A stretch of 40,563 nt of DNA. It comes from a virus. The stretch's first letter is position 1. Each line of letters starts with the position of its first letter. A program made the translations under genes and the position numbers. The DNA lies in the IMG/VR virus record IMGVR_UViG_3300032246_001241, positions 1 to 40,563 of that record. One strand, 5' to 3'. Positions 25,201-40,563 of the stretch are shown here, piece by piece. Under the pieces are notes generated by a model. The model was not told the origin of the DNA. It ran no database searches and saw only the letters and a program-made list of their open reading frames with translations.

Positions 25201-26765
25201 GCTTCAGTAGCAGCAACTACAGGCTTGGCCCAAGAATCATCTTCATTTTCTGACTGAGTCTTTTTAGGTTCGTTTACAGACTTAATCCATTTTTGTAGAA
25301 GCGGGTGGTCGTACGCTAAAACATCGCTACTTTCTTGTACTTCAGATTCATTAGCCGCTGAACTCTGGATACCGTGAGCAGGACCTTCTCCGGCTGCAGC
25401 ACGCTGAGAGTCTACCCAACCGGCCCAATCGTAAAGAAGGTTGTGTAGATCGTTAGAAGTCATTGCAGGAAGATCACCCTTGATGTGAGCCTGAGGCTTA
25501 TCAATCGGTGAGCGCGGACGTCCAAGAATACCTGATGTGTCTAGAGGATGAGAATAATCTCCTAGAGGTGGAGTTTTATACTTAGCTCTTTCGGCAATAG
25601 CTTTTTGTTCCTCAGTTGCACCACTTGGAGCGCTACCACCCTGAGGAGCGAACTTGCCTCCGTAATCTCTAGACTGGCGTTGTGCATTCTGAGCGCGTTC
25701 TTCTGGAGTATATCCGTCAGATCCAATTGGATCTTCTCCAGCAGCAATAAGAGATCTATCTATAGCAACCAGGTCTAATTCCTGGTAGGCCTCTGCTGCA
25801 AGCATAGCTTCATCAAAATCAATGTCAGAAATTGATACGCATTTGTATGGGTTTTGTTGAAGTCTAGCTGATATAATAATTGCAGAGTCTGGATCGATAG
25901 ATATGTGAGTCTTATCTACATTGTCATAGTCAGCATCAAGCTCACGGTCATAATCCCAAATAGTCCCATTCATATTACCAATGTTGTCCCACTGACCGTC
26001 ATCCCAAACGTAGACGTCGCCAGTTTGTACTACTTTATATAGGCGATCAATACCAGAGCCATCCATTCTTACTCTGGCAATAAAGTCTGGAGCTGAGAGA
26101 GGATCTAAATACATAGACTTAGTGAAGTCTTCTAGATCGGAATCATAATTACGTTCTGGAAGATAAGAAGTCAACTCAGATTCGGCATATGCGTCAGCAG
26201 TCAGAGCTTTATTTTCACGTTCAACGATAGCCTGAGCCCAACGCCATGCGGTGTCTCCACCCCACAAGGCCCACGCGATTCGTCCGTTGCTTGGGAAGCC
26301 GTCTTCTCCAGGCTTCCAACCCTTACCTTTTTTGTCAACTTCGTGACGAGGGAAGTATTTAGCAATGTGGCGAACCTTTTGCAGTCCGATCTGTCCACCC
26401 TTAGCAAGGATACGAGCAGTGTTCATGCCAACAGGTGTACCGCCACGGTGGTGTTCTTTATGCCACTCAAGTGCTTTTTTGGCCTCTGCCTGGGCACCCT
26501 TTGGGATAGTGTAAAGTCTATTAGCTGAGGCAAGTATCTTCATGTCAAGATCTGATAGAGCTCCGGACACTAATTCTAGAACGTTAGAAGAGAACTCTTC
26601 TTCAGAAAGTTCCCAGTCTTTAGAGGAGGAAAGGGCTTCAGAGAGTCCAATCTGAACTACAAGATTGACATCTGTATCAATTACAACACCGCGGTTCTCG
26701 TAGGTAAATAGAGCCAATGACCCATCCCTACCAGAGAATGTGGGGGTGTTTTCCGATTCAAACAT
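22221..26765 (-). CDS. Capsid maturation protease within a large multidomain protein
   Basis: 1514 aa, GGAGGA 10 nt before ATG. Residues about 85-190 hold a module with 'KVRHIAKYFPRHEVDKKGKGW' and 'FPSNGRIAWALWGGDTAWRWA'. Residues 660-720 hold 'GLKIRWGTGGDWTRCVRHLGKYL', then 'GYCALRHKEVTG'. Both are modules I associate with actinophage capsid-protease or portal-neighbour proteins. The protease core is at about 780-905: 'GRSFIRGALSIRELPLPLLWQ', catalytic His813 in 'EGHMGS', 'VGRIDHME', Ser861 in 'KGVSADLD', and 'ARVMAVTIVPKPAF'. A further conserved region (about 930-1140) includes 'VFGHIAAWNVDHIGLAYG' and 'GLELVAVCQVNVPGFPIARAR'. The C-terminus is helical and may be scaffold-like. Two 'Q-[SP]-RDY-x-G-[KR]-F' motifs flank the core (near residues 365 and 1353). 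It probably cleaves the capsid precursor and perhaps the upstream giant protein. It is far larger than an HK97-type protease. Confidence 0.85.
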   Translation of the reverse strand: MFESENTPTFSGRDGSLALFTYENRGVVIDTDVNLVVQIGLSEALSSSKDWELSEEEFSSNVLELVSGALSDLDMKILASANRLYTIPKGAQAEAKKALEWHKEHHRGGTPVGMNTARILAKGGQIGLQKVRHIAKYFPRHEVDKKGKGWKPGEDGFPSNGRIAWALWGGDTAWRWAQAIVERENKALTADAYAESELTSYLPERNYDSDLEDFTKSMYLDPLSAPDFIARVRMDGSGIDRLYKVVQTGDVYVWDDGQWDNIGNMNGTIWDYDRELDADYDNVDKTHISIDPDSAIIISARLQQNPYKCVSISDIDFDEAMLAAEAYQELDLVAIDRSLIAAGEDPIGSDGYTPEERAQNAQRQSRDYGGKFAPQGGSAPSGATEEQKAIAERAKYKTPPLGDYSHPLDTSGILGRPRSPIDKPQAHIKGDLPAMTSNDLHNLLYDWAGWVDSQRAAAGEGPAHGIQSSAANESEVQESSDVLAYDHPLLQKWIKSVNEPKKTQSENEDDSWAKPVVAATEAAPKEKGVEMTPKTSDVKPIYLAVVAQDDPRAVLNLVAIVPESSTSPKPMTYVRKEGKWVRDPSVLNDFKSATPPPVVPLDKATLNDVLLQVDESSKPVTASVLMDIDHLLTVLWGPDPLISAGGLDRNKGKAEELRHYWTVGKGGLKIRWGTGGDWTRCVRHLGKYLGPRAKGYCALRHKEVTGMWTGDKKHRQIYGHKRGGRNVFSTELIESTDNIIVKSEVLARAADAKLRVGLTAASGLVTEGLKFKIPLVIPEEMESGDGRSFIRGALSIRELPLPLLWQMKTAEGHMGSVVVGRIDHMERTPQGIGNAYGVFDTSPYGREAQRLIENGFIKGVSADLDQFEAKEIKPEASEGSEDLGKSKLSINKARVMAVTIVPKPAFQECKILVETPTNIQQEDTMIADGIYQDDSDAANVQALIACGIIAGAIPVVPPTEWFDNPNLSKATPITVDDNGRVFGHIAAWNVDHIGLAYGTKPPRSKSGYAYFHTGVVRTENGKDVPVGQLTLAGGHASLEASAAEAVKHYDDTASAIADVHAGEDSYGIWVAGALRPSAQPEQIRALRASAPSGDWRPIRGGLELVAVCQVNVPGFPIARARVASGAVMALVAAGALPLARMKADPTAELNAHIERLQNLNFIESGKSTKASTDEYAAKIAELSARVRDGELAYIPRAEREKLAKEGKALPDGSFPIQNVEDLRAAIHAYGRAKESHKSNVRKHIIKMAGKLNVRHLVPEEWKAHSEDAVTASAEDLRSRITVKALLASADEAKARVLSIKDSLGKALAADGSVPEEAPAPVSEDNVPVPTDGAKEVIGNPEEEGFKFTPGINQPRDYTGRFQDVLARLKLDLGTSGLQNVVNEVSKVEKVYKTGDYSEAAKAGQGLLDLLDRIDSKSLTGPSLENVRAASKELGEVIGNLPLPFGDENAKLRFSDLPPALKNLMTNMVDRVGKKLGEKDGKQATSDIAEFMRGGDLFSQADISSVMARMLRLLT

Positions 26766-27094: not shown

Positions 27095-27466
27095 TTAGTT
27101 GACTGAATAGTCTTCTTCATCGTCATCTTTTGGGTCTAGGTCTGACCACTTTGGAGCATTATCGGAAAAAGATACTATCTCTGGATCTAGTCCATAAATA
27201 GAAGCTATAGCAAAAAGAACCGTATAGGCTGAACTTACGCTTTTAAGCAACTCTGGACCGGACGGTGGAATAAGAAAAGTGCCGTCTGATTTGGATCTTA
27301 TGGAATCTATAAATCGCTCTATCTGAAAAATTATGTGATCGCCATCACCTGATCCATTCCCCATAAGGTATGGGGGACGAGGAGTCCAGGTTATCTCTAC
27401 TCCTTCTATAATGAAGTTCCAAATTTCAGACCATTCATCATACGGGTATTCTAGTTCTTCATCCAC
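27095..27466 (-). CDS. Hypothetical acidic protein
   Basis: 123 aa starting at GTG 27466, 2 nt after the stop of the giant gene, with GGGAG inside that gene's end. N- and C-termini are strongly acidic (MDEELEYPYDEW at the start, DPKDDDEEDY near the end). The middle has 'EGVEITWTPRPPYLMG', a Ser/Lys segment and a hydrophobic helix ('SSAYTVLFAIASIYGLDP'). Coupled translation with the giant protein is likely. No domain was recognised. The acidic character could suit a small partner or chaperone of the upstream protein, but that is only a guess. Confidence 0.75.
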   Translation of the reverse strand: MDEELEYPYDEWSEIWNFIIEGVEITWTPRPPYLMGNGSGDGDHIIFQIERFIDSIRSKSDGTFLIPPSGPELLKSVSSAYTVLFAIASIYGLDPEIVSFSDNAPKWSDLDPKDDDEEDYSVN

Positions 27467-27468
27467 GA

Positions 27469-29238
27469 TTACTTATTCTCCCAGTTCAATAACGACATCA
27501 ATAGACCGATGCCAAAAGCTTTTAGATCCCAGTCGGTATTATTAGAATGATCCATTCCTTCAATTCCAGTAATTAATTTAGGATCAATTTTAGTTGTCAT
27601 GGTGGCATCAGTATACCAAATGCCAGTAGCTATATCCATATGAGCATCACTAAACAACGTAGTGTTTTTGCCTTTTCCAGTTTTAACCGTAACGCCCTTA
27701 GGAGTAGAGAAGCTACCAGGAGAAGTAAATAGATCCTGCATTGTAGTAGTTATAACTTCGGCACTGTGATTATGCGGACTGAAGGTAGCAAACTTACTGG
27801 TTGAACGAGGATATACCTTCACAGTATAAGGATCTGCCACCTTTGCCCCAGAGAAGGATTCTTCTACCCAATTTCCATAAAGTTCCATTGACGGAATGAT
27901 ATTATTGTTGTCAGATGCTTTAATTCTGTCATAAGAGAAAGCGTGCTCTAAAGCTGCAATATCATGGTTGATCATCTGGAAGAAATGCCAAACTTCGTGT
28001 AAGTAGTCATCAGTTGATTTTCCACGGAAGAATCCTCCATCTCCCTGCTCTTTTTTCCATCTCAATGAATTTATTAAATTTTTATTTTTCCAGTGCTGTG
28101 TAAATCGCGCACGTGCGTCGGAGATTTGAACCCCTAGTTTTCCACCCGTACTAGCTAGGTACTCCATTCCAGCTAGAATAATATCTTTAGGAATAAAACT
28201 AAGAGTTTCTTCTAGATTTTTAATAAGATTTTTATTCATATCTATTCTAATATCTTGGAATTTTTCATTAACATTAACATATTTGTAGTCTTTATACTGA
28301 TTAAAGAACTGATGTGCAGGCACCGAGTCGAATTCAACTCCAGCCTTTTCCATCTGAGATTTAATATTTTTACCAATTATAGAGTGATACTTTTCTACAA
28401 AATCTTCTGCTTTTGGAGAAGTTCTGAGCCGATCTCTTAGCTCTTTTATCTCAGCTGCTTTTTGAGCAAAATCTGACATGTCAATTTTGCCTGTTTGAAT
28501 TGCCCACTTGGTAAGCATACTTAGAATAGTGTCAGGTCCTTCATGTGCCCAAGTAACGTCTACTAAAGTCTTTCTTTCTTCTACTTCTTTAGTTAGTTTT
28601 CCGCTCCTGTTTCTAGTTCTTTGTAGTACAGTTTTACCGGTATCAAAAGTAAACTCTGGATATGGAGTACTGTAATCGTAAGCAAGCTTATGAGAAAGAT
28701 CATCACCATACTCGACTAGAAGCATATTAAAAGTTTCTTCTGCATCAAAAGTATTTTTATCTTTACCTGACAATATGCTATTTTTAGAATTTTCTTTTTT
28801 GAAGCTTTGGAAAACCTCTTCTTTATCTTCGTAAGAAAGTCTATTAAAAGCATTTCTCATAAGATCCTGAGACATAGCCTTAAACTTACTTTCTGCTATA
28901 AGTATATTTAGTTCTGCAGTTCTAGCATCATTCTTTAGTTTTTTTCTATATTCTTCAGCAGTAAATCCTTCAGGGATAAGACCTTCAGATCTAGCTTGCT
29001 CATCTGAAATAGCTCTAGCATCATCTAGAATCATATGTCCTAGATCGATTATTTCATTTTTAATAGCGGTAGCCTGATCAGATGGAGCTACTGCATCTTT
29101 TTTAGGAGATCCTTCGATATTTATTACAGGACCGTCAGTCGCTATGCTTATATCATTTTTAACTTTTCCAGGTATAAACCCTATTCCGCTAGAAGCAATA
29201 TCTTTTGCTGCAGATGCAATGACCTGTTCTCTAGAATT
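27469..29238 (-). other. Polyprotein module: C-terminal domain with HEVWH motif
   Basis: 589 residues after tag 7. The first part is helical ('DARTAELNILIAESKFKAMSQ'). Near residue 4180 'DYLHEVWHFFQMINHDIA' contains HExxH (27985-27999), and about 70 residues later 'HNHSAEVITTTMQDLF' could supply a Glu ligand. A second peptidase is possible, but the Trp-containing motif is unusual and there is no family recognition. Confidence 0.5.
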
Positions 29239-32200
29239 TTCCCTATTTTGGCTAGGCTTGCTGTTATTTGGAATACCAAGTTTATCTAGCATAGTCTTAA
29301 GAAGATCTATAGCAGCTTTTTCTTTTCTTTCATCAACAGTATCAATCTGATTATTGATCCAATCAGCGACTTCTTTGTATCGGCCAATGCCATCTTCAGA
29401 CAACATCATTCCAGCATATGCTTCCGCTAGGTATTCTCCCTCATCAGTAGCTGCATAGTCACTTAGAGGATATTCAGTCATAAATCTACGAAGCGTATCT
29501 TTCGTAGCCTGATCGCTAAAATTAATAATTCCTCTTTGTTCAAGAACGTGGCCTATTTCGTGAGCAATTGTAGACTCTAGCTCTGTAGCATCTACCCTAG
29601 GATTTTCAGTGAGTTTAGGGTTAGGCTCATTATCTTCTTCGTTCAAAATTTGACCATTAACAAATAGGTGAGGGAAAGACAATCCAGCTAAGTTTCGGCC
29701 ACGAGTGCCGTCATCTCTAGTAAATGGTTTGAAAAAATCTTCTATATTAGGGTGAGTAACAATAACTTGAAGCTCTTTTACAGGGAACTTAAATTTAACT
29801 CTAGATAATACATCCGAAAGTTTATTTGCAAATTTAGCTACCCCAGCAGCTGTAGCAGCTCTGTACTCGGTATTTACATTTGTTTTACCATTTTTCTTAG
29901 TTGGATTAGTTATAAATCTAACAACTTTAATGGTCACATTATTATCTTTATTTATATAGATATCGTGATGAGAAAGCAACATATGCTCCTCATCATGTCT
30001 ATCAATTAAAGGAATTATATGCTTAACAAGATACTCTTGAGCATTAATAGATAGATCTTCACTACTAGCTCCATCTCCCTTAACAACGTTCATGTACCAC
30101 CTATAAATAGCATTTTTTTCAGCCATCGTTAAGTTATCAGTTTCTACATCTGCTGCTAACCACTCTGGCTTTGCATCAGGAAGAGGTCTAGTTCTCTGAT
30201 CACCGGCACCAGATAGAAGTGCTGTAATAAATGTTCTGTGTAGCTCGTTTAAAGAGACAGGTTCCTCGACTGAATTAGTTTGACCGGATCCTCCAGGAAG
30301 TTCATTTTCTTTAGCATCTAGTTTTTTCTTCTTTGCAAACTCAGAGATAACCCAGTCAGAGTTTTCTACGCTATCATCAACGTTGATAGACGGAATCTCT
30401 CTATTTTGTGATGGCCCAGTGTTACCCGGAGTACTCTTGTTAAATTCAATAAGATTGTCAAAAGCATTTTTATCTTTAAGAAGTTCATCTGATAAGTAAG
30501 AAAGTATTTTATCCACATTTTCAGCAATAAAAGTTTTTTGGTCAAGTACTTTATGAGAATCATCACTAATTACAGCTCTTACTAGTCTATTTTTTCCTGC
30601 TAGTAGAACTATCTCAGCTTCTTCAAAACAACCAAAACCAGTTCCAGGAATAGAAAGAACCTGATCAACGGGAATTATAGTTCCCATAAACATTCCTGCT
30701 CTGTGTTTTATTCCACTAGTAGCAAACTGGAAAGCACTGCCAGTAAGCCAAGACCATGATGACATAGGTCTTTGCAATACTTCAATATCTCCTACACCAT
30801 AACGTTCAACATCAATGTTCATTTTTAAAGCTTCTTCATCTACTCCAGTACCTCTGTAAAGGGTTAAATACTTTATTCCATAGTTTTTAAACCGATCCTG
30901 AGTAAGGTCGTACATAGTTTTTAAGAAATCTTTAAGTACTGTTCCGTATATTCCATAGTGATATTCCGCATTTTCTTTAATTTGATCCCCATACTGACCT
31001 TTAGGGAATCTCCACTCCGCCCATGATCCATCAGGCATTTTAAATACTTCAGTTGCAGCCATCTGAAGAGCGTGAGAAACCATATCATTACCGTTAGATG
31101 TTTCTGCCCACTGTGAAACAAGAATTGAAGCTACCTTTTCTTTTAGTGCTTCCATATCTTTTGGATTATCAAAAAATAATGTTTTTCTATCCCAATCGTC
31201 GTAATAATCATTTAAAAGAGCTTTGTAATCAATACTTTCATTATCATATTTATCTCCATAAGCCCCTTCCTCGTTAGGATCTAGATTATCTAATATTTCT
31301 CCTAAAGTTTCTAAACGTAATCCATCATATGGAGAGTCATCAGAGACATCTATTATTAGTACAATAGAGTTTTCATTCAAATTATCTATTCTACTTTGAA
31401 TAGCTTTTTTAACTATTTCTAAGGTATCTGAGGTTATTGAACTAAATCTATTACGTACAGTTTCACTAAGTGTTATGGCATAGTGAACCGCATCTAGCAT
31501 ATCTTTAGCGGAAGATAACATGTTTTCACTTATGTTTTTAGCAGTAATACTCTTTAATTTTTCTGGAGCATGTCCCATATGCCCAATTGGGCTATTGGCA
31601 TTAAAACTGTCAGGATCGTGCCAATAAGCAATATCATTAGGTCCGGGTTCTTTCTTTTCAGCCATAAGTTCATCTAAAAGATCTGATTGTATTTTGAGTA
31701 CATCTGTAAGTCCAGAAACATTGCTTGAATCTGAATTAGTTTTAGGATATAAAAGATCTTCATCATTAAATAAGTGGTATGGATTTATAAGAGATCCATC
31801 TTTAACATTTTCAAAGTTATATAAACTTCCATCCTTATTTAAAAATGCATCTCCAACCCCCCCGGCTCTCTCCATTTTAGTTGGATTTTTAAACTTTACA
31901 GTGCTAACGCCAACTACAACAGGCACATATTCTCTTCCAGCTATACGTGCAGCTTCAACCCTGTGATTCCCCTCTGCAATAAAAGCTTTTCCAGTAAGAG
32001 GGTTGTACCAAACTAGTACTGGCTCTAAATAACCAGTACCGTCTTCGAGGTCATGGGCTATAGAAGATGTACTGCTCTCCATATCTGCAAGATTGCCTTT
32101 CATTGTGGCAAGCTTTTCAGTCCTAACGTAACCCAGTGGATTACCGCCATTACCTATTCCATATATTTTGACACCTTCGCCAGTCCATTCAGTAATGTCT

Positions 32201-35200
32201 AAATTAGGGTCATTCTTATCTCTATAGGAATTATTTAAAGGAATTACTTCACGATATTCATTAAGAATAGATGGTTCTGAAGCACCTTCTCTATTTTGGT
32301 TAGGACCATAGTCAATCTCATCGCCATCAAGCTTAGGTTCTTCTACAGGAAGACCCTTCTCCTTAAGAAGATCGATCTGTAGTTGCTTAGATTCTAAAGA
32401 ATCGTGTACTTCTGGTTTTCCAGCATCTACAGAATTAGAAAAGGCTTTACCATACATGGTAAGAGTACTTGAGTGATTGACAGGTTTGCTATAGTGCTTA
32501 CGAGCTAAGTACAACATTGCTGTTGCAAGACCTCTACGCCTGTATTTATCATCAGTCAGTACCATACCAATATAAGCAGGAGAATTTGGATCTTTTCTAC
32601 TATCATCACTAACTTTTAATGTAGCTATCTGAAGACTTTTTGTCCCAAATTGATCAACATTTTCCATACCCTCAGGAGTAAAAAATTTCTCAAGGAACAT
32701 ACTCTTCATGTCATACACTACTGTAATTGCGGAATAATCTCCCACATCATTAGTTCTGATGTCAGTAAAGATTACATATTTTCTACCGTACTTATCTGTA
32801 AAGTTATCTGTGTAACGTACAAACCCAGTAAACTTTTTAGGTTTAGATTTACCTAAAGTAATTTGATTTGCTATAGTTTCAGTATTTGTTTCAGAGTCTG
32901 GGTTAGCTACAGTTATAAATTTATTGTACTCATGCCTTCTAGAGATTTTAGCTGCACTTATTTTTGATTTATCTCCAGAAGCTATTGCTTCCTCTACATT
33001 TTTATTTTCCCAGTCCATAATTTTTTGCTGCTGCTCATTAAATGGAGTACCATCGGGAAGCTGAGTATAGTCATAATTATAGATAGTATCCATGTCAATT
33101 TTACTATCATTAGGATCGAAAGGCTCAGGTAAATACTGACCCTCACGGTTCTGAGAAGGCTGGTTATTAGATAAAGCAGCCTTTGACTCATCATTTCTAT
33201 GAAGATCTGGGTTAGGGTCAATTGAAAGAGAAAATGCTCTACCAAAATTAGTTAGCATTTCTGAATGCTGAACTTCTTTTCCAGAACGCTTTCTTGCTAG
33301 GTAAAGGGCCGCAGTAGCTAATCCTCTTCTTAGGTATCTATCTGAGGTGTAAACCATACTAATTTTATTATTAAAGACATCTAGCATAGATACAGGAGTT
33401 CTATCCTCTGAATTATCTTGAAGATCCTGCACTGAGTTTTTACTCTTATCGTAGATCTTTACGTTTGACATACCAAGGCCGTTTACTACCTTGGTAACTA
33501 CCCAATACTGTCTACCATATTTATCAGTGAACTCATCAATATACTGAGTGCTCTGCTTGTATTCTGGTGAAAGATCTGCGTAAGGCTTGCCGGCACCGCT
33601 ATAGCTCATTCTAGAAGTATTTTCATCTAGAAGTCCCACCTGGTTTTCAATACTTTCAAGATTAGTGCCGGACTTTAAGTTTGGCTTAGCAGTATATCCC
33701 TGATAAATACGTCTTCTCTCATCGATACGTAGTTTTCTTTCAAAATTATCAGTTTCATTATCAATTGCATCTTTAAGAATATCCATTTGCTGCTGCTGAT
33801 AAACATTAAATGGAGTGCCATCAGGTAGCTTAGTGTAGTCGTAGTTGTAATACTTTTCTAGGTCAATGGTAGGATCCGTAGGATCAAAAGGTTCCTTCTT
33901 GGCTTTGTTTCTTTTAAAGAATCCTTCACGATTCTGAGAAGGAGCATTGTCTTCCTGTAGTTTTATAGATTTCTCGTTATTATGCAGATCAGGCTTACCA
34001 GGGTCAATGCTGTTAGAGAAAGCAAATCCCATGGTAGACAGGTGTTCTGAGTGGACTACCGGTATGCCTAGTCTCTTTTCTAGAGCAGCCACCATAGCTG
34101 TTGCCAGACCTCTTCTTTGGTAGTTGTAGCTAACTAACGCGCTTTGAATTTCAGATTTAGATGGATCCTCATAAATGTAACTTCTAAGTGCACCAACATC
34201 ACCGCTTGCAAGTACAGGCTGATCTTTTCTTATATAGTCTTCCGGAAGAGCCATGTTCTCATAGTTTTTTGCGTCGTAAGCAATTACAGTTTGACGTCCA
34301 GAGCTTTTATCTATATTTGTAGATAAATAATACTTTCTACCATATTTATCTGTGAATGTATCTACATATCTAGTGTAGGTAACTCCGCTAGCTTCATCGT
34401 AATACTCAACAGCAGGCTTATCGCTAAATTCTATTTGCTTGAGAATGCTTTCTCTTGTAGTAGAAGAGTTTTCATTAGGTTTAGCAATTATCTGCTGGTA
34501 AATAGTTCTTCTAAAGTTCTTTATATTTTTTAGAGCAGATGGATTGACATAGCCATCGCTACCTTTAAGAATATTTTTTAATCTTCTCTCTACCGCATCC
34601 ATCTGCTGCTGATCTTCAGAGTTAAACGGAGTTCCATCAGGCATTCTGGTGTAGTCGTAGTTGTAATACTCATCTAGATCGATTTGAGGGTTTCTTGGAT
34701 CAAAAGGCTCTGGTAGGTATTTAGGCTCTTCTTCTTTAGGAGCAGACTCTATCTTGTCAAAATACTTGTCAGCAGCCGGCCATAGGTTGCGTAGCATTTC
34801 TTCAGGCATACCTTCAGCAGTAGGCTTAGACATAAAGTTAGAAAGCTGCTCTCTGTCAGCAAACATCTTTAAGAAATTATCAACGTTGATAGGTAGGTCC
34901 CAGCCTACTGTCTTAATCCAGTCTGAGTTTCCATCATTGTCATCAATGTTTATAGGGTTTTCTCTGTTTTGAGACGGCTTGCTTTGTTCCTGAACTACCT
35001 GCTGGCCACTTGCTCGGTCAGTATCTAGAACCTTCCTACTATTTGCAAGTTGATCCACAACCTCAGCCTTGAGATTTTGAAGACTTTGATCTACAACTCC
35101 AGGGTATCCATGACTAATAGCAAAAGCTTCTCTAATCTCTCCACCTAAAACAACAACCTCACGCTCGTCGTAAGATCCAAATCCAGATCCGGAAAATGAA

Positions 35201-38200
35201 ATAATTTTGTCAGCCGGAATTACTGTAGCCATAACTATTGTATCTTTGCCAGAAGCTCTAGATGCAAAGCTACCAGCCTGATAGATATCAGTTGACCATG
35301 AAGACATCGGTCTCTGCTTAACATTAGATCTAAATATTCCAGTAGATCCTAGACTTTGAGAGGTTCCAGTAAGTTCTTTGGAAGTAGTTCCTCTGTATAG
35401 AACGAAACCATCTATTCCCTGATCCTTTAGTAGATCCTGGGTAGCATTGTACATTGCATGTAAGAACTGAGCATAAACGGTCCTGTGATCGTTAATTTCT
35501 TGATCAACTAATCCTTTTAGATAATTATTTAAATCTACTAAATCTTTTATTTCATAAGGTATGTATGACCTATCTCTGTACCTATCTAGATCATCGTCGG
35601 TAAGTGCCCCAGTAAAATTCCAGTCCGCTGTCGAGTTAGGATCCATAGCAAATATTTCTCTAGCTAAACTTTGCAAAGCATGAGACTTTAGGCTTCTATC
35701 ATTAGAAGATATTGCCCAGTTGTGAATCAAGTGAGATATCATTATCTTCTTTATATCGTCAACATCTTCTTGACTAGAACTTGAGTGCACTCTAAGGAAG
35801 AGCTCATCGTTTATAAATCTCACGATACTGTTTGAATTGGTGTCTCCCATTGTTTTAAGAACGGAATTTAAAAGCTCTTTATTTACAGTAATTATTGATA
35901 CATTTGAAAGACTATCGCTACCATTAGCATCGGTAACTAGAAGTTCTGTTCCTTCTTTTATATCTGACATATCTGCATTGAGGGCATTGTATATCCACAC
36001 AGGATTTCTTTGGCCTGGAAGTGGTGAATATGATGCTTGTCCAGAATTAAAGTCCATGTAATAGATAGCTAGACCGCCACCTTCTCTAAACAACGGATGT
36101 GTATCTACTTCTATAGAAGCTTTGAGTAGATCGTCAAACTTGGCATCTGGCATATAGTTGAGAAGTCTCATGGCTGTTACCTGCTTGAGAAACATGCTTA
36201 CTCCGAAATTGGTTTTTGATGCAAATATGTCAGACGGATCTTCATTAGAATTTACATTATTAATATCGCCATTTGCTAAAGCATCTGCTATAGCTGCAAT
36301 TGAAACTTGATCGGTAACTTGGGTAATATTTCTTTGATCGCCCTCACGGTTTTGGCTAGGGTTAGACTTTTCTTTAGCTGATTGAACGTCACCTAGATCA
36401 CGGATCTTATCGTCATAAACGTTACGAATTTGCTCTAGATCATCACCACTTGTAGTGGAATCTTCGTAAAGTGAGTTTAGTTTTTTAAGTTCATTGTAAA
36501 GTTCTTTAGCTGCAGCTTTGTAGACATTTTTGTCTGAACCAGGTTGATTTCTAAAGTTTTCAATTGCATTTTCAAGATTATTTTTAAAAGCACTTAGATC
36601 ATCTTCTAGATTTCCATTGTAAGCAGCATTTTCTACAGCTTCAGGAACTGCCGGAGCTTCAGGTGAAACTTTACCCCTATTAGAAATAATCCTTCTGATC
36701 TCAGACTCATCCTGAGTGTGGAATACATTATCTAAGGTGTATGACTCTTTAGAATTGTTAATGTTTACAATTCTAGGAGTACCATCTCTATCAATTTCAA
36801 GATTGTAACCCCACTCAATGAAGTCTGTTTTATCTCTAAGAGCTGTAGGATTAGGCTTTTTAAATATTTGTAGCTTTATCTTTTTAAGATTTCCATCATT
36901 ATCAACAACAACTAGACCATCTCCCTTATTGATTATCTTGCCATCAGCACCCCTGTGAATAGGGTTAACTTCGGCACCTTTACCTGAAGAATAATCATCT
37001 ATGTATTTTTCAAAATTATCTAGATAATCTCTACTAGACATTATCTTTTTAAAAGTTGTTTCTAAATCTACATAGCGAATGAAATCATCTATGTCTTCAG
37101 GGTTTAAAATCTTTGCTAACTGGTTGACCTTATCGTTTGCATCTTTCTTAGCAGCATCAGGGTCTTCAGTTCTCTTAACTCTGTGGAGGTAGTCGTAAAC
37201 TTTTTTAAGAGCTTCAAATAGTCTGTAACCATCTTCACGGGAAATTTTATCTGGAAGTTCTTCTCCAGGCTGCTCTTCAGGTTCTTCTTTAACTTCTGGT
37301 TCAGTAGACGGTTTAGACTTAGATTCTGGTTTAGTCTGAGCCGGCTTAGTTTTATTAGCTTTCTCAATATCCTTTTTATCTTTAGGACTAAAAGCGTAAA
37401 GCTTAGTAAGCATGTTAAAGTTATATGTAGATTCTTTTCCGTTAGGACCTCTTACGGTAAACTGAACAACTCTACCTAGACTATCTTTCTTAACTACAAC
37501 TCCAAGAGCATAGCCATCTGGACCATACAAAGTCCAGCCAACATCTACTTTTTCAGCTAAGTACTGCTTACCTGTATCTTTGGTTATTTGAGTAGGCCCA
37601 AGATCTTTAGGAGTCTCTACTGGAGTTGCAGGAGTTGCAGCAGGTTTTTCTGGCTCAGCTTTGACAGGTTCCTCTGGCTTTTCTTCAGCAGGTTTAGCAG
37701 CTTCAGCTTCTGCCTTTGCTTTAGCTTCTTCATCCCACTTTCTCTGTCTTTCAGCCATCTTAGCTTCTTGAACTGGAGCAGTAGCATCTGAATCCAATTT
37801 TGGATCATCACTGTTTGGTTTGAAAGCATCGTAGACCATCTTAGGGACATCGATCATGCTACCATTTTCATCTACGAAAAGGAAATACTTAATAGGTCCC
37901 CAAGACTTAACTGACTCGCCCTTTACATAGTCAACATCTCTAAGGTTTTGGCTCTTATGTCTACCGATAGCAAATCTGCTGTAAAGTTCACGGTAAGTCA
38001 TTACTTCACCATTCCAGCGAACTTTCTTGTCAAGGTGGGCTTTAATTTTGCCTAGTTGCATTGGAGATAGAGCATCAAAATCTAGAACTCCCCCAGCAGT
38101 CTCAATAACGTTTTTCTTAGGCTCTTCTGTAGGCTCGGCTGCAGGCTCTTCTATAACTGCAGGTTCTTCTGCAGCTTCTTCAATGTCAGATTCAGAAATG

Positions 38201-40563
38201 CCATCCTGTACTTCTACTTCTTTAAAGAGATCATCGAAGTTAAACTTTAGAGGGTCAGTTGGTTTTACAGACCCCTCTTTCATACCCTCGTTAGTAAGTG
38301 TATTGAGCTGCTTCATAGCGTCAGTTACTTCAGCAGATCTCTTAGATGCCGCTTTTCTTTCATTTTCATCTGTTGAAGAGTTTCTAGTATTGTCTAGAAT
38401 ATCTCTAAGCTCTGTAAGTTTTTCGTGCAATACTACAACAGGGAACTGCTCTAGTTCTTGTCTTAGACGCTTAGCTTCACGCTTTTTATTCTTTGCTCGG
38501 CTTGCAGCTTTATATTCTCTGTAAAGTTTTCCAGCCTCGGTCCAAGCATCTCGGTTAGCCTGACGTTCTTCCTCGGTAAGTTCTTTAGGCTCTTCTTTTA
38601 CCTGAGCTTCGGCTACAGGTTCGGCAGCAGGCTTAACGTTTGAGTTCTCGTCAGAGTAACGAGCTAGACCGGTTATTCCACCAAATTTATCTAAAAATTC
38701 TTCATCATTAACAAAGACATTATCGTAATACCCGCCCTGCGCACGGTTAGGTTCTTTAATTTCAAAAACTCTATTTCCGTTTTCATCGGTCTTAACGGAT
38801 ACAACTTGTGCATAGAAGTTAGGACTAGTTTCTTCGCTTTTAGTTCCCCTCCATCTAGTATTTGGAGGGAAGTGGCCGCCATACATTAGGTAGTCGCCAG
38901 ATTGAATTTGATCCAAAGATTCTAAAGGAATGTATTCGGATGTGTAAGGATTATTATTTCCACCATTTTCAGCTATTGCATTAGCCAACATTTTTCTGGC
39001 TTCTTCTACAGCTTTCTTCCAAGCTTCTGGATCATTAATATCTCCTGGAACCTCGGCATTTCTATAGTCAATAAGTCTACGTCTAGACATATCTTCTCGC
39101 CATTTGTTATTTAATAAGCTTATTCTCCAACCAGCAACTCTTCCCTTTTTGTTGTAGCTATTAGGCTCAATTGCTTCTTCATAATAAATCTCTACTCCAT
39201 AGCGAAGCCCATCTTTTACACGAACGTCAGGGTAGTCCGATTCGTGCTGGAATCCTTCTCCATTTATTACATATTTAGCGTAAAGTTCTCCCACACCGGC
39301 AGGGAGCATTTGTACGTCTTCTGGAAGTGGGTGGTTGTGCTCGCCTACTAGTTCTGCTGGACTAGTTGTAGGAGTGGCTTCTTCTTCAGCAAGCTGTTCT
39401 TTTTCATCCTCATCATTTAATTTAAAGAATTTAAAGCCATACTTATTTTCTAGTTCTTTTTCATTATCAAGTCTTCTTTGAAGTTCTTCTTTAGCTAGAT
39501 TTTCATCTTTATAGGCATCTATCATATCCCCAATGTGCGCTGCACTTCTTTCAGATGACCCTAGCATAATTTCATATTCGCCCCAGTTAGTTTGCTTAAC
39601 AAAGTATTTTCCAACTAGATCTTTAAACTCAGGATCCATATCACCCTCTAGACCAACATCTAGAGTTATTTTTTCTACTTTTCCGCGATTAACTAGATAT
39701 ATAGTATCTCCACGCTTTGGCTTATGGCCATCAGCTGTAACACCTTCAGTAGCATCTCTACGTGCAGGATCTTTCCAAATTTGATATTGCTGAGCTAACC
39801 ACTGCTTAGCTTTTGCTATAAGTTCAGGATCTTTATAGTACCCATAAAGATCTGCCCCTCTCCAATAACCGTCTTTGTCTTGGAATTTTACAGAGATGTG
39901 ATCTCTAGGGTAGTCGGTACTTCCCCAGTATCTAATCTCTCCCCAGAATTCAGCACCTTTCTTTGGAGCTGCCATATTTCCGCTACCATTGCGAGGCCTA
40001 GCCATATTCCAACCAAGAGCAATTTGACCATACTTATCTTTTTCCCAGTCGGCTGCAACATCTTGTAGATCTACGAAACTGTCATCAATTTTTTCTGGTT
40101 TGTTGGCAGGGCTAGGTGCAGTAGTTGGAGCATTGATACTTCTATATCTCTTAGCAAGTTCAACGTAAGACTGATTTATAAGATTTTCTAAAGCTGACTT
40201 GTCATTTTCATCGCCATCAACTTCAAAAGTTGCAACTGTATTACCCTTTGGATCTAGAATGGTAGCGGTCCACTTACCATCCTTGTTAGATATGATAGCT
40301 CCAAATGGAGGCTTCTTCACTAAATCTATTTTTTGATCTCTAGCTGCTTTCCATTTTCCGGTCTTAGGATCTTTTACAGCTCTCCAAATGTAGTCATCTC
40401 CAACTTTTCTAAAGAAGTGAGGAACTGTTCCGGGCAATTCTCCATCGTTATATTCTTCATTTCTTCTTGCAAGAATTCCTACAGTATGCTTGAACTCCAT
40501 TCTGAAGATTTCTGATTCAGAATCTCCTATATTCAATACTTCTGAAGGACCGTATTCATCTCC
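27469..40563 (-). CDS. Giant modular polyprotein of host-modifying enzymes, 5' end outside window
   Basis: At least 4364 codons with no internal stop. The frame is open to the right edge (first visible residues GDEYGPSEV), so a start drawn at TTG 40536 would be arbitrary; residue numbers here count from that codon. The N-terminal 1392 residues are unrecognised beta-rich blocks joined by Pro/Glu/Lys linkers. From there, seven PSQNRE-type hexapeptides (residues 1393, 1854, 2199, 2460, 2745, 3375, 3761) separate an ART, three GNAT-like modules, a ParB-like plus ART module, an HEIGH peptidase module and a C-terminal module with HEVWH. Other parts of the chain are Asp/Asn/Lys-rich and soluble, with no signal peptide or membrane segment visible. 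It lies in the capsid operon upstream of the protease. I infer a packaged or virion-associated effector polyprotein; direct cytoplasmic action is the alternative. Confidence 0.9.
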   Translation of the reverse strand, partial: GDEYGPSEVLNIGDSESEIFRMEFKHTVGILARRNEEYNDGELPGTVPHFFRKVGDDYIWRAVKDPKTGKWKAARDQKIDLVKKPPFGAIISNKDGKWTATILDPKGNTVATFEVDGDENDKSALENLINQSYVELAKRYRSINAPTTAPSPANKPEKIDDSFVDLQDVAADWEKDKYGQIALGWNMARPRNGSGNMAAPKKGAEFWGEIRYWGSTDYPRDHISVKFQDKDGYWRGADLYGYYKDPELIAKAKQWLAQQYQIWKDPARRDATEGVTADGHKPKRGDTIYLVNRGKVEKITLDVGLEGDMDPEFKDLVGKYFVKQTNWGEYEIMLGSSERSAAHIGDMIDAYKDENLAKEELQRRLDNEKELENKYGFKFFKLNDEDEKEQLAEEEATPTTSPAELVGEHNHPLPEDVQMLPAGVGELYAKYVINGEGFQHESDYPDVRVKDGLRYGVEIYYEEAIEPNSYNKKGRVAGWRISLLNNKWREDMSRRRLIDYRNAEVPGDINDPEAWKKAVEEARKMLANAIAENGGNNNPYTSEYIPLESLDQIQSGDYLMYGGHFPPNTRWRGTKSEETSPNFYAQVVSVKTDENGNRVFEIKEPNRAQGGYYDNVFVNDEEFLDKFGGITGLARYSDENSNVKPAAEPVAEAQVKEEPKELTEEERQANRDAWTEAGKLYREYKAASRAKNKKREAKRLRQELEQFPVVVLHEKLTELRDILDNTRNSSTDENERKAASKRSAEVTDAMKQLNTLTNEGMKEGSVKPTDPLKFNFDDLFKEVEVQDGISESDIEEAAEEPAVIEEPAAEPTEEPKKNVIETAGGVLDFDALSPMQLGKIKAHLDKKVRWNGEVMTYRELYSRFAIGRHKSQNLRDVDYVKGESVKSWGPIKYFLFVDENGSMIDVPKMVYDAFKPNSDDPKLDSDATAPVQEAKMAERQRKWDEEAKAKAEAEAAKPAEEKPEEPVKAEPEKPAATPATPVETPKDLGPTQITKDTGKQYLAEKVDVGWTLYGPDGYALGVVVKKDSLGRVVQFTVRGPNGKESTYNFNMLTKLYAFSPKDKKDIEKANKTKPAQTKPESKSKPSTEPEVKEEPEEQPGEELPDKISREDGYRLFEALKKVYDYLHRVKRTEDPDAAKKDANDKVNQLAKILNPEDIDDFIRYVDLETTFKKIMSSRDYLDNFEKYIDDYSSGKGAEVNPIHRGADGKIINKGDGLVVVDNDGNLKKIKLQIFKKPNPTALRDKTDFIEWGYNLEIDRDGTPRIVNINNSKESYTLDNVFHTQDESEIRRIISNRGKVSPEAPAVPEAVENAAYNGNLEDDLSAFKNNLENAIENFRNQPGSDKNVYKAAAKELYNELKKLNSLYEDSTTSGDDLEQIRNVYDDKIRDLGDVQSAKEKSNPSQNREGDQRNITQVTDQVSIAAIADALANGDINNVNSNEDPSDIFASKTNFGVSMFLKQVTAMRLLNYMPDAKFDDLLKASIEVDTHPLFREGGGLAIYYMDFNSGQASYSPLPGQRNPVWIYNALNADMSDIKEGTELLVTDANGSDSLSNVSIITVNKELLNSVLKTMGDTNSNSIVRFINDELFLRVHSSSSQEDVDDIKKIMISHLIHNWAISSNDRSLKSHALQSLAREIFAMDPNSTADWNFTGALTDDDLDRYRDRSYIPYEIKDLVDLNNYLKGLVDQEINDHRTVYAQFLHAMYNATQDLLKDQGIDGFVLYRGTTSKELTGTSQSLGSTGIFRSNVKQRPMSSWSTDIYQAGSFASRASGKDTIVMATVIPADKIISFSGSGFGSYDEREVVVLGGEIREAFAISHGYPGVVDQSLQNLKAEVVDQLANSRKVLDTDRASGQQVVQEQSKPSQNRENPINIDDNDGNSDWIKTVGWDLPINVDNFLKMFADREQLSNFMSKPTAEGMPEEMLRNLWPAADKYFDKIESAPKEEEPKYLPEPFDPRNPQIDLDEYYNYDYTRMPDGTPFNSEDQQQMDAVERRLKNILKGSDGYVNPSALKNIKNFRRTIYQQIIAKPNENSSTTRESILKQIEFSDKPAVEYYDEASGVTYTRYVDTFTDKYGRKYYLSTNIDKSSGRQTVIAYDAKNYENMALPEDYIRKDQPVLASGDVGALRSYIYEDPSKSEIQSALVSYNYQRRGLATAMVAALEKRLGIPVVHSEHLSTMGFAFSNSIDPGKPDLHNNEKSIKLQEDNAPSQNREGFFKRNKAKKEPFDPTDPTIDLEKYYNYDYTKLPDGTPFNVYQQQQMDILKDAIDNETDNFERKLRIDERRRIYQGYTAKPNLKSGTNLESIENQVGLLDENTSRMSYSGAGKPYADLSPEYKQSTQYIDEFTDKYGRQYWVVTKVVNGLGMSNVKIYDKSKNSVQDLQDNSEDRTPVSMLDVFNNKISMVYTSDRYLRRGLATAALYLARKRSGKEVQHSEMLTNFGRAFSLSIDPNPDLHRNDESKAALSNNQPSQNREGQYLPEPFDPNDSKIDMDTIYNYDYTQLPDGTPFNEQQQKIMDWENKNVEEAIASGDKSKISAAKISRRHEYNKFITVANPDSETNTETIANQITLGKSKPKKFTGFVRYTDNFTDKYGRKYVIFTDIRTNDVGDYSAITVVYDMKSMFLEKFFTPEGMENVDQFGTKSLQIATLKVSDDSRKDPNSPAYIGMVLTDDKYRRRGLATAMLYLARKHYSKPVNHSSTLTMYGKAFSNSVDAGKPEVHDSLESKQLQIDLLKEKGLPVEEPKLDGDEIDYGPNQNREGASEPSILNEYREVIPLNNSYRDKNDPNLDITEWTGEGVKIYGIGNGGNPLGYVRTEKLATMKGNLADMESSTSSIAHDLEDGTGYLEPVLVWYNPLTGKAFIAEGNHRVEAARIAGREYVPVVVGVSTVKFKNPTKMERAGGVGDAFLNKDGSLYNFENVKDGSLINPYHLFNDEDLLYPKTNSDSSNVSGLTDVLKIQSDLLDELMAEKKEPGPNDIAYWHDPDSFNANSPIGHMGHAPEKLKSITAKNISENMLSSAKDMLDAVHYAITLSETVRNRFSSITSDTLEIVKKAIQSRIDNLNENSIVLIIDVSDDSPYDGLRLETLGEILDNLDPNEEGAYGDKYDNESIDYKALLNDYYDDWDRKTLFFDNPKDMEALKEKVASILVSQWAETSNGNDMVSHALQMAATEVFKMPDGSWAEWRFPKGQYGDQIKENAEYHYGIYGTVLKDFLKTMYDLTQDRFKNYGIKYLTLYRGTGVDEEALKMNIDVERYGVGDIEVLQRPMSSWSWLTGSAFQFATSGIKHRAGMFMGTIIPVDQVLSIPGTGFGCFEEAEIVLLAGKNRLVRAVISDDSHKVLDQKTFIAENVDKILSYLSDELLKDKNAFDNLIEFNKSTPGNTGPSQNREIPSINVDDSVENSDWVISEFAKKKKLDAKENELPGGSGQTNSVEEPVSLNELHRTFITALLSGAGDQRTRPLPDAKPEWLAADVETDNLTMAEKNAIYRWYMNVVKGDGASSEDLSINAQEYLVKHIIPLIDRHDEEHMLLSHHDIYINKDNNVTIKVVRFITNPTKKNGKTNVNTEYRAATAAGVAKFANKLSDVLSRVKFKFPVKELQVIVTHPNIEDFFKPFTRDDGTRGRNLAGLSFPHLFVNGQILNEEDNEPNPKLTENPRVDATELESTIAHEIGHVLEQRGIINFSDQATKDTLRRFMTEYPLSDYAATDEGEYLAEAYAGMMLSEDGIGRYKEVADWINNQIDTVDERKEKAAIDLLKTMLDKLGIPNNSKPSQNRENSREQVIASAAKDIASSGIGFIPGKVKNDISIATDGPVINIEGSPKKDAVAPSDQATAIKNEIIDLGHMILDDARAISDEQARSEGLIPEGFTAEEYRKKLKNDARTAELNILIAESKFKAMSQDLMRNAFNRLSYEDKEEVFQSFKKENSKNSILSGKDKNTFDAEETFNMLLVEYGDDLSHKLAYDYSTPYPEFTFDTGKTVLQRTRNRSGKLTKEVEERKTLVDVTWAHEGPDTILSMLTKWAIQTGKIDMSDFAQKAAEIKELRDRLRTSPKAEDFVEKYHSIIGKNIKSQMEKAGVEFDSVPAHQFFNQYKDYKYVNVNEKFQDIRIDMNKNLIKNLEETLSFIPKDIILAGMEYLASTGGKLGVQISDARARFTQHWKNKNLINSLRWKKEQGDGGFFRGKSTDDYLHEVWHFFQMINHDIAALEHAFSYDRIKASDNNNIIPSMELYGNWVEESFSGAKVADPYTVKVYPRSTSKFATFSPHNHSAEVITTTMQDLFTSPGSFSTPKGVTVKTGKGKNTTLFSDAHMDIATGIWYTDATMTTKIDPKLITGIEGMDHSNNTDWDLKAFGIGLLMSLLNWENK
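29239..30396 (-). other. Polyprotein module: zinc metallopeptidase (HEIGH)
   Basis: 386 residues between tags 6 and 7. 'TIAHEIGHVLEQRG' carries HExxH at residues 3659-3663 (29548-29562). Downstream 'GEYLAEAYAGMM' offers a Glu as third zinc ligand, the gluzincin arrangement seen in phage and toxin peptidases. A beta-rich region precedes it. It could process the polyprotein itself or a host protein. Confidence 0.72.
30397..32286 (-). other. Polyprotein module: ParB-like domain plus ADP-ribosyltransferase 2
   Basis: 630 residues between tags 5 and 6. The first part has a ParB/Srx-like segment, 'YLEPVLVWYNPLTGKAFIAEGNHRVEAAR', with GNHR at residues 2856-2859 (31960-31971). The second part repeats the helical domain ('SQWAETSNGNDMVSHALQMAATEVF') and an R-S-E class ART: Arg3228 in 'LYRGTG', 'MSSWSW', and E3306-A-E3308 in 'CFEEAEIVLLAG'. 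Whether the ParB-like part cuts DNA, phosphorylates, or only binds is open. Confidence 0.72.
32287..33141 (-). other. Polyprotein module: GNAT-like acetyltransferase 3
   Basis: 285 residues between tags 4 and 5. It has the same order as the other two: EPFDPNDS, 'NYDYTQLPDGTPFN', 'FTDKYGRKYVIFTD', 'YRRRGLATAMLYLARKHYSK' and 'HSSTLTMYGKAFSNSVDAGKP'. The following tag is the variant PNQNRE. Confidence 0.7.
32350..34710 (-). repeat. Three tandem paralogous GNAT units
   Basis: Units begin at 34710, 33894 and 33126. Each opens with EPFDP, carries 'NYDYT-x-x-PDGTPFN', and has an RRGLAT loop. DNA similarity is visible across the opening 100 nt of each unit, showing descent by tandem duplication. Confidence 0.88.
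33142..33924 (-). other. Polyprotein module: GNAT-like acetyltransferase 2
   Basis: 261 residues between tags 3 and 4, paralogous to the modules on both sides: EPFDPTDP, 'NYDYTKLPDGTPFN', 'FTDKYGRQYWVVTK', 'YLRRGLATAALYLARKRSG', then 'HSEMLTNFGRAFSLSIDPNPD'. The shared N-terminal block and the HS-x-x-L tail are conserved, while the middle has diverged. Confidence 0.7.
33925..34959 (-). other. Polyprotein module: GNAT-like acetyltransferase 1
   Basis: 345 residues between tags 2 and 3. After a linker of about 85 residues it starts at EPFDPRNP (34710), then 'NYDYTRMPDGTPFN', a beta sheet with 'FTDKYGRKYYLST', and the acetyl-CoA-binding motif 'YQRRGLATAMVAAL' (RRGLAT) near 34100-34125. It ends 'HSEHLSTMGFAFSNSIDPGKP'. 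The RRGxAT loop is the GNAT pyrophosphate-binding signature. Acceptor substrate unknown. Confidence 0.7.
34960..36342 (-). other. Polyprotein module: ADP-ribosyltransferase 1
   Basis: 461 residues between tags 1 and 2. The C-terminal half has an R-S-E class ART layout: Arg1715 in 'LYRGTTSKE', 'MSSWSTD' near 1744-1749 as the S-T-S element, and E1791-R-E1793 in 'GSYDEREVVVLGG'. The N-terminal half is a helical domain with 'HNWAISSNDRSLKSHALQSLAREIF', also present ahead of the second ART. Such enzymes move ADP-ribose from NAD to Arg or other residues. Phage examples (T4 Alt, ModA, ModB) modify host RNA polymerase and ribosomal proteins. Substrate unknown here. Confidence 0.8.
36343..40563 (-). 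other. Giant polyprotein, N-terminal unrecognised third
   Basis: About 1400 residues before the first PSQNRE tag. Compact blocks alternate with low-complexity linkers (for example 'EEKPEEPVKAEPEKPAATPA' near 37650-37710 and 'KPESKSKPSTEPEVKEEPEE' near 37270-37330). Three blocks contain a similar small beta motif with 'G-D-x-[ILM]' (KPKRGDTIYLV near 39715, DQIQSGDYLMYG near 38900, KGDGLVVVDNDG near 36910). A helical block near 36380-36640 precedes the tag. No enzyme signature was recognised. It may anchor the polyprotein in the head or fuse to an upstream portal or MuF-like part beyond the window. Confidence 0.6.

Follow-up and report, generated by a model that had tools for sequence, protein, structure and literature searches.

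The window analysed here, the whole 40.6-kb virus record IMGVR_UViG_3300032246_001241 (positions 1 to 40,563), carries beside its capsid genes a giant polyvalent-protein frame on the minus strand (27469..40563), in which predicted enzyme modules are set apart by a repeated peptide, PSQNRE, referred to below as the tag. In relatives, a second giant with the same tag (giant 2, 3236 to 3542 codons) lies directly upstream of this one (giant 1), outside the window, and in related phages a different peptide, PS[PQ]KxE, stands at the same joints, which suggests that the peptide is a signal with a reader of its own, for example a protease, that evolves alongside it. Sequence comparison supports a multi-enzyme effector gene next to capsid genes, in which the tag has the properties of a functional peptide. 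We propose, with a rough probability of 45%, that the two giants are paired head-operon polyproteins that are packaged and delivered, that the tag is a joint signal and likely a processing site, and that it is read by a co-evolving factor, for which the HExxH module at the C terminus of giant 1 would be the best candidate.

As the preliminary description of this DNA had stated, the window holds one frame of at least 4364 codons; it runs from 40563 to a stop at 27469, with its 5′ end open, so that giant 1 is incomplete here, its 5′ part missing beyond the contig end (40563). Six tags read PSQNRE in the translation, at residues 1402–1407 (tag 1, 36343..36360), 1863–1868 (tag 2, 34960..34977), 2208–2213 (tag 3, 33925..33942), 2469–2474 (tag 4, 33142..33159), 3384–3389 (tag 6, 30397..30414) and 3770–3775 (tag 7, 29239..29256), and one, tag 5 at residues 2754–2759 (32287..32304), reads PNQNRE; all lie on the minus strand. 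Composition predicts 0.034 copies of QNRE in the frame against the seven present, which rules out a chance repeat as the origin of the tags, and at least one QNRE appeared in 73 of 2000 shuffles of the frame. The earlier claim that PSQNRE sets off the modules holds for seven joints, although one of them carries PNQNRE and the tags occupy only the C-terminal two thirds of the chain, from residue 1402 on.

Five viral contigs (G001–G005) contain a close homologue of the C-terminal part of the window frame. From stop to stop, giant 1 measures 5983, 6023, 6023 and 6256 codons in G001, G002, G004 and G005, and the frame is listed at 6023 codons in G003; G002 and G004 have the same coordinates and sequences that are not identical. 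Among all tagged full-length relatives, giant 1 frames span 5983 to 6850 codons. Giant 2 (G001:C1:57113-66820, L015; also present in G004, G005, G006 and G008), with about 3240 codons in the QNRE-tagged contigs, joins a DnaQ-like exonuclease, a UvrD helicase and ArdC-MPTase. In G004, RNase_T, UvrD helicase, ArdcN and MPTase-PolyVal exceed their Pfam cutoffs in this protein, and Pfam recognises a further RNase_T in the N-terminal part of giant 1. The motif QxRDxxGRWxEMG lies near the N terminus of both giants (about residues 38 and 223 in G001), is shared by many giants across the wider family and takes a looser form in the capsid maturation protease protein; a third HExxH motif (HELGH or HEMGH) is found near residue 850–890 of giant 1 in the relatives. 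A profile scan of genome contigs with giant 2 returned no relative. The open reading frame (ORF) upstream of giant 2 (L015 1-1113; L120 2621-4828) shows by eye a Dps-like GYHWN motif.

The tag differs between lineages as a set. Among relatives gathered with the protease profile (the best 80 of 198 related stretches), three near ones, L026 (G006), L028 (G007) and L031 (G008), carry PS[PQ]KxE instead of PSQNRE; the sequence of a further near relative, L027, does not reach the upstream region. We counted 43 tags of the QNRE class in G001, G004 and G005 (two giants each) and 46 of the PS[PQ]KxE class in G006 and G008 (two giants each) and the fragment of G007, and within each genome the peptide is uniform across the two genes. 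Since class-specific search patterns fix positions, the invariance at Q3 and R5 and at P1, S2, K4 and E6 arises partly by construction; a degenerate tag, PAQNKE in G005, falls outside the pattern. The final Glu is present in 40 of the 43 QNRE-class tags, with Ala or Val in the other three, and in all 46 of the sister class, where the pattern imposes it. All six tags of giant 2 in G004 align with PSPKEE in G006; against G008, four align exactly, one within two residues and one has no counterpart. For the nine G004 tags of giant 1, the PSPKEE copies of G006 match exactly at four, within two residues at three, with one misplaced by the alignment and one without a counterpart. These alignments show that the tags have been replaced as a lineage-specific set in both giants.

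Within a class, the tags outlast their surroundings. Between G006 and G008, giant 2 is identical at 97% of tag positions, 43% of flanking positions and 62% overall, and between G006 and G007 the corresponding values for giant 1 are 88%, 38% and 41%; giant 1 of G006 and G008 gives only 55% at the tags, with half of the flank positions gapped. Between the classes (giant 2, G004 and G006) the tags are 50% identical and the whole protein 72%. The same peptide is written in varied codons: the 11 PSQNRE copies in G001 come in ten DNA versions, with serine encoded by both TCN and AGY, and the 19 tag copies in G006 in 15. Taken with the persistence of the tags over their flanks, this variety indicates that selection acts on the peptide; the codon diversity also disfavours a DNA-level repeat or recombination joint. 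The core of giant 2 in G006 is 72% identical to that of G004 and 62% to that of G008, so that PSQNRE probably arose from an older PS[PQ]KxE state. SAPKEE at residues 1940–1945 of the window frame (34729..34746, minus strand), a position at which the tag is intact in G007 and G008, is probably a relic in the QNRE clade of an ancestral PSPKEE tag.

If the tag is read by a dedicated factor, that factor may have changed with it, and the C-terminal module of giant 1 (residues 3770–4364, 27472..29256, minus strand), which contains the HExxH motif HEVWH, is our candidate reader. The two giants give 75 bins of 100 residues with data, nine of which place G006 closer to G008 than to G004; of the 58 bins that the QNRE clade conserves, six do so: five form the contiguous C-terminal HExxH block, and in the sixth the difference is two points. 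These bins place the divergence of the module on the branch where the tag switched. The small acidic ORF that adjoins it (123 residues, 27095..27466, minus strand) is likewise split by tag class, G006 being 51–52% identical to the QNRE clade, 69% to G007 and 57% to G008, and could encode an inhibitor, chaperone or cofactor of the module. Divergence is unusually high in the bins around the HELGH module as well, and in L197, which carries a third kind of tag in both giants, the C-terminal module has a homologue that is accompanied by a HELGH motif, the latter matched by motif only. In the C-terminal module itself, HExxH, E437 and E500 are invariant in all eight sequences, and four rows of zincin metallopeptidases cover about residues 314–593 at low Z (3.1–5.3), among unrelated folds. 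Two other candidates were considered. The HEIGH module of giant 1 is disfavoured as the reader, for the giant of G006 is without the HEIGH motif and keeps 13 tags; ArdC-MPTase is disfavoured as the sole reader, since its sequence is well retained across the switch and it also occurs in the untagged G009.

Several observations weigh against this assignment. The model of the C-terminal module is poor (mean predicted local distance difference test score, pLDDT, 58), a Foldseek search with it found nothing in the PDB at E ≤ 0.001, and its profile gave 17 weak matches among PDB sequences, none a metallopeptidase; its putative protease nature is read from HExxH and the weak zincin rows. The link between module and tag comes from a single inferred switch, and a coincidental recombination could have produced it; the block of residues 1801–2000, outside the 58 conserved bins, departs too, though it is hypervariable inside the QNRE clade. 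Partial homologues of the C-terminal module occur in L042 and L200 in ORFs with no recognised tag. Conversely, phages tagged with G[FL]DQ, IMDPP or LSSG have no homologue of it within the loci examined, and these three groups would therefore need a different reader. In giant 2 of the QNRE clade, one tag, PSQNR[AV], lacks the Glu (residue 785 in G001, 784 in G004, 786 in G005 and 787 in L117). Finally, tag 2, the sole tag in the interior of a model, falls in blocks of pLDDT 24–31, which is a weak sign of a flexible linker, since the same shallow model is as low over much of its GNAT1 part.

The strongest rival is docking without cutting: the tags would be docking or cargo-loading peptides that tether a flexible polyprotein to the capsid interior, scaffold or portal. 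Tags that lie between modules, in many copies and in both giants, and that are constrained as peptides, are what such tethering would call for, and a single binding partner would likewise force concerted replacement. We nevertheless regard docking as unlikely, given that the major capsid protein (MCP) alters little between the tag classes (in an alignment of that protein; the portal and other head proteins were outside the comparison) and that the block that did change is the HExxH module with the small ORF.

The preliminary description had drawn a parallel with T4 Alt and its trimming by the gp21 prohead protease. Here the S78-like capsid maturation protease would cut the tags in the prohead, in the manner of gp21 on T4 Alt, and a loose Glu-ending motif would suffice. 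The protease gene does lie in the same operon as the giants, PSQNRE and PSPKxE both end in Glu, and the prohead proteases of T4, phiKZ and SPN3US cut after Glu, at L/I-x-E in T4 and at A-x-E, with one ARE site, in SPN3US. However, a scan of plus-strand ORFs of at least 80 codons at 12 loci of the wider family found no tag in the MCP or protease ORFs: at 11 loci the pattern was confined to the giants, and L042 had none. In three of the loci a loose QNRE pattern also matched PIQNVE, a peptide of the protease ORF that is no tag, and a looser cleavage motif common to tags, MCP and protease is possible. A tag-reading capsid protease would be expected to change on the switch branch, but the protease domain stayed as it was: over residues 751–900, the bin that holds most of it, the window is 93% identical to G006 and 89% to G004, and over residues 901–1050 the values are 87% and 85%. 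A loose motif would also allow drift within a genome, whereas the tags stay uniform, and neither PSQNR[AV] nor, in other lineages, RLSSG and GFDQA has a fixed terminal Glu. The gp21-like scheme is thus not borne out, and we consider it decidedly improbable.

A host factor, for example a host protease, might read the tags after injection, with the tags changing when the lineage shifts host; this would account for concerted replacement with the capsid protease unchanged, but it leaves the change of the C-terminal block on the same branch unexplained, and we think it very unlikely. A neutral origin, in which recombination between linkers during module shuffling spread the tags as joints and kept them alike, has in its favour the gain, loss and exchange of modules seen at tags and the help that repeated linkers would give to exchange, yet it is hard to credit for one peptide in differing codons that outlasts its flanks within a class and switches as a set between classes.

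An in-chain metallopeptidase is favoured because the tags changed in concert, the capsid protease stayed unchanged and the HExxH block changed, in agreement with the proposal made in 2017 for MPTase domains. On this polyprotein reading, the giants would be synthesised as single chains and packaged into the head, perhaps via their N-terminal regions, and would enter the host together with the phage DNA. The repeated peptide would be a sequence-specific mark at which the chain is cut or held, and would be read by the HExxH module at the C terminus of giant 1, perhaps together with the small ORF beside it or with the N-terminal HELGH module of the full-length relatives. Once delivered, the exonuclease, helicase, anti-restriction, ADP-ribosylating and acetylating units might work against targets in the host or its defences. 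We infer packaging, cleavage, injection and which protease is involved; packaging and injection would fit, by analogy, the known class of polyvalent proteins, and a narrow literature search for related named phages returned no papers.

The enzyme content of giant 1 largely follows the preliminary description, which listed two ADP-ribosyltransferases (ARTs), three GNAT-like modules, a ParB-like segment and one or two HExxH motifs. ART1 (residues 1402–1862, 34978..36360; like all modules, on the minus strand) is assigned from conserved residues, a model and VIA rows. Its Arg, SxS and ExE positions, which we take to be the motif of R-S-E class ADP-ribosyltransferases, are invariant across seven aligned sequences including the window, and the 14 best of 265 VIA rows (Z of at least 2) for its model are ART structures, at modest Z (5.1–6.0). 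In the AlphaFold model of ART1 and GNAT1 together, 29 of the first 44 ten-residue blocks reach a pLDDT of at least 70 and the GNAT1 part is poorly modelled. Foldseek matched it to no PDB structure at E ≤ 0.001, the structure search in BFVD gave one uncharacterised phage protein, and the profile of the same segment found a single PDB sequence, not an ART, at E = 0.079. With ART1 as query, giant 1 was matched twice in all five matching contigs, the second time at 36–40% identity, which shows ART2 and ART1 to be related modules of one chain and confirms the count of two.

The three GNAT-like modules were also confirmed. Acetyltransf_1 matches the whole frame at 31.4 bits (cutoff 20.7) in two stretches, and RRGLATA occurs three times in the frame, once in each module. 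Taken alone, GNAT1 (residues 1863–2207, 33943..34977) scores 19.3 bits with Acetyltransf_1 against that cutoff; the GNAT2-like module (2208–2468, 33160..33942) has no Pfam match and is assigned from RRGLATA and flanking motifs common to GNAT1 and GNAT3; the GNAT3-like module (2469–2753, 32305..33159, submitted to Pfam as 32299-33159) gives GNAT matches below threshold, at 15.7 bits. A ParB-like motif, EGNHRVEAAR...PVVV, precedes ART2 in the next module (2754–3383, 30415..32304), where ART2 is recognised by its likeness to ART1. The motif is kept in five sequences; G007 and G008 have different residues there. Here the motif of the earlier claim stands but not a profile match, ParB_N having reached only 13.8 bits (E = 0.06, cutoff 26.3), and this in the relative G006 only; the profile of the ParB/ART2 segment found no match among PDB sequences. 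The HExxH motifs are two, HEVWH in the C-terminal module and HEIGH in the module before it (3384–3769, 29257..30414), whose weak Peptidase_M78 likeness is below cutoff. NCBIfam gave three matches to the seven segments, all sub-threshold, and the Pfam matches at E ≤ 1, taken over the window frame and residues 1–2980 of the G004 homologue, include no MuF model. A second repeated peptide, resembling N[IVL]D.S.ENSDW[IV], follows tags 2 and 6 (residues ~1869–1885 and 3390–3405), behind both ART modules.

Tags of other sequence occur in other lineages. G[FL]DQ[AD] is found in two adjacent ORFs in L041 (three and two copies), L043 (five and one) and L068 (seven and two); IMDPP occurs three times in L039 and five times in L079, with the same pattern in L081; and L197 has four copies of NI[AE]PDAEG and two partial ones across two adjacent giants. 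A helicase-based search for wider relatives (the best 80 of 182 stretches) brought in a group with [RG]LSSG and close variants: L122, L123, L126, L130, L131 and L136, with 15, 11, 13, 10, 8 and 13 copies in giant 1, respectively, and more weakly L132 and L133; L126 and L136, and L123 and L131, are apparent near duplicates. Giant 2 has three copies in the contig of L122, where the frame may be cut, and four in L130. The peptide is absent from the other ORFs seen in this group, among which no search singled out the MCP or the protease. All 14 copies in L130 begin with G and nearly all those elsewhere in the group with R, a difference suggestive of one more concerted replacement. Most other giants of the wider family have no tag, and in G009, G010, DSL-LC01, Pumpernickel, Cece and Mimi no joint tag rose above shuffle level besides simple repeats. 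Dense repeat arrays of KRNADAKAYGQG and GAWDTGKNGTG in head-region ORFs (L086 6124-9930; L197 12652-15927) are unlike the sparse joint tags. Several lineages might have independently evolved private tag codes, with a cognate phage protease or packaging factor switching alongside, an idea we put forward tentatively. If it is true, PSQNRE, PSPKxE, NIAPDAEG, G[FL]DQ[AD], IMDPP and [RG]LSSG would belong to orthogonal tag–reader pairs, and effector modules would be exchanged freely within tag classes and not between them.

The capsid-operon setting first described is confirmed, with giant 1 directly upstream of the protease and MCP genes. On the same strand it is followed by two small ORFs, a 1514-residue protein with an S78-like capsid maturation protease segment (22221..26765), the MCP (682 residues with a fused acidic N-terminal region, 20029..22077), head and tail genes and a tape-measure-like protein; neither the protease protein nor the MCP carries a tag, and the tail and tape-measure names were assigned by eye and from the gene order of named relatives. 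By its protease protein, the window phage is related to viruses of actinobacteria: the closest named phage is the lake phage DSL-LC01 (52%), with a predicted host in Actinomycetia (PMC10611076), followed at 43–44% by the Microbacterium phages Pumpernickel, Big4, Zooman, A3Wally and Cece. The protease protein is a single ORF in the window (22221-26765) and three ORFs in DSL-LC01 (L010 19992-24911). The N-terminal third of the window frame (residues 1–1401, 36361..40563) has no tag and no domain recognised at cutoff, and these 1401 residues found no match in a search of the phage collection. For the remaining 2963 residues the only match there was Bacillus phage SP-15, at 29%, in two records of that phage; the matching protein, SP15_258, is annotated as hypothetical (L014 14305-15714). 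PHROGs gave only two weak matches to the whole frame.

Among known systems, the head-borne ART Alt and the internal proteins of T4, which are cut C-terminal to Glu in a short motif and ejected, resemble what is proposed for the giants, but they carry terminal propeptides on separate proteins (PMC9026906), whereas here the tag is not in the MCP and the capsid protease is unchanged with the tag; a motif common to MCP and protease, as in T4, was not found at the 12 loci scanned. In phiKZ and SPN3US, many packaged head proteins are processed by one prohead protease at a Glu-ending motif (A-x-E in SPN3US); 13 of 14 SPN3US sites remove N-terminal propeptides of separate proteins, and the portions consulted mention no multi-enzyme chain (PMC10052503, PMC9026906). 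The Dar proteins of P1 (DarA, DdrB, DarB and Hdf) are head-packaged anti-restriction proteins, some processed before packaging, that are ejected with the DNA; as far as these partial sources go, they differ in being encoded by separate genes, with DarA losing an N-terminal piece and no tag repeated between enzyme modules (PMC12810830, PMC5512222). Nearer at hand, the portal–protease interval holds a giant gene in DSL-LC01 (WJZ48510, 3289 codons), Pumpernickel (gp82, 2235), Cece (gp68, 1654) and Arthrobacter phage Mimi (gp77, 2709). These actinophage giants share that position and an N-terminal QxRDxxG[KR][FW], and Mimi gp77 has an annotated helicase; they differ in having no joint tag, only shuffle-level patterns and PE/AP-rich repeats, with a RIAEID repeat in Cece.

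The closest likeness is to the phage polyvalent proteins of 2 to 15 domains described in 2017 by Iyer et al. (PMC5512222), and these correct, as to the number of modules, the earlier remark that no described case with so many modules joined by one tag was known. Like the giants, they place disparate domains in one chain in a virion-gene neighbourhood, including ART, GNAT, ParB-like, ArdC-N and MPTase domains, and packaging, processing by MPTase domains and injection have been proposed for them (PMC5512222). At least two disparate domains are likewise present here (ART, GNAT and HExxH in the window; RNase_T, UvrD, ArdcN and MPTase-PolyVal in the G004 giants), in a virion-gene neighbourhood in the window and four named relatives. 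What differs is the repeated, lineage-specific joint tag, which the text of the 2017 paper at hand does not describe, the word 'linker' occurring 0 times in its main text (PMC5512222), and the pairing of two adjacent giants, together of more than 9000 codons, under one tag. The class is known; for a concertedly evolving tag of this kind, PSQNRE or any other, we found no description in the literature searched, which reached few subscription journals. The stated problem of polyvalent proteins is how one chain of many activities is separated into working units. A lineage-specific tag that evolves in concert offers a direct handle on that separation, allowing cleavage to be tested at predicted places and readers to be sought by co-variation, and it provides a simple computational mark for module boundaries and for new injected effectors in phages of uncultured hosts. 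Should tag and reader pair privately, the pairs would also form a naturally occurring panel of orthogonal sites for proteolysis or docking.

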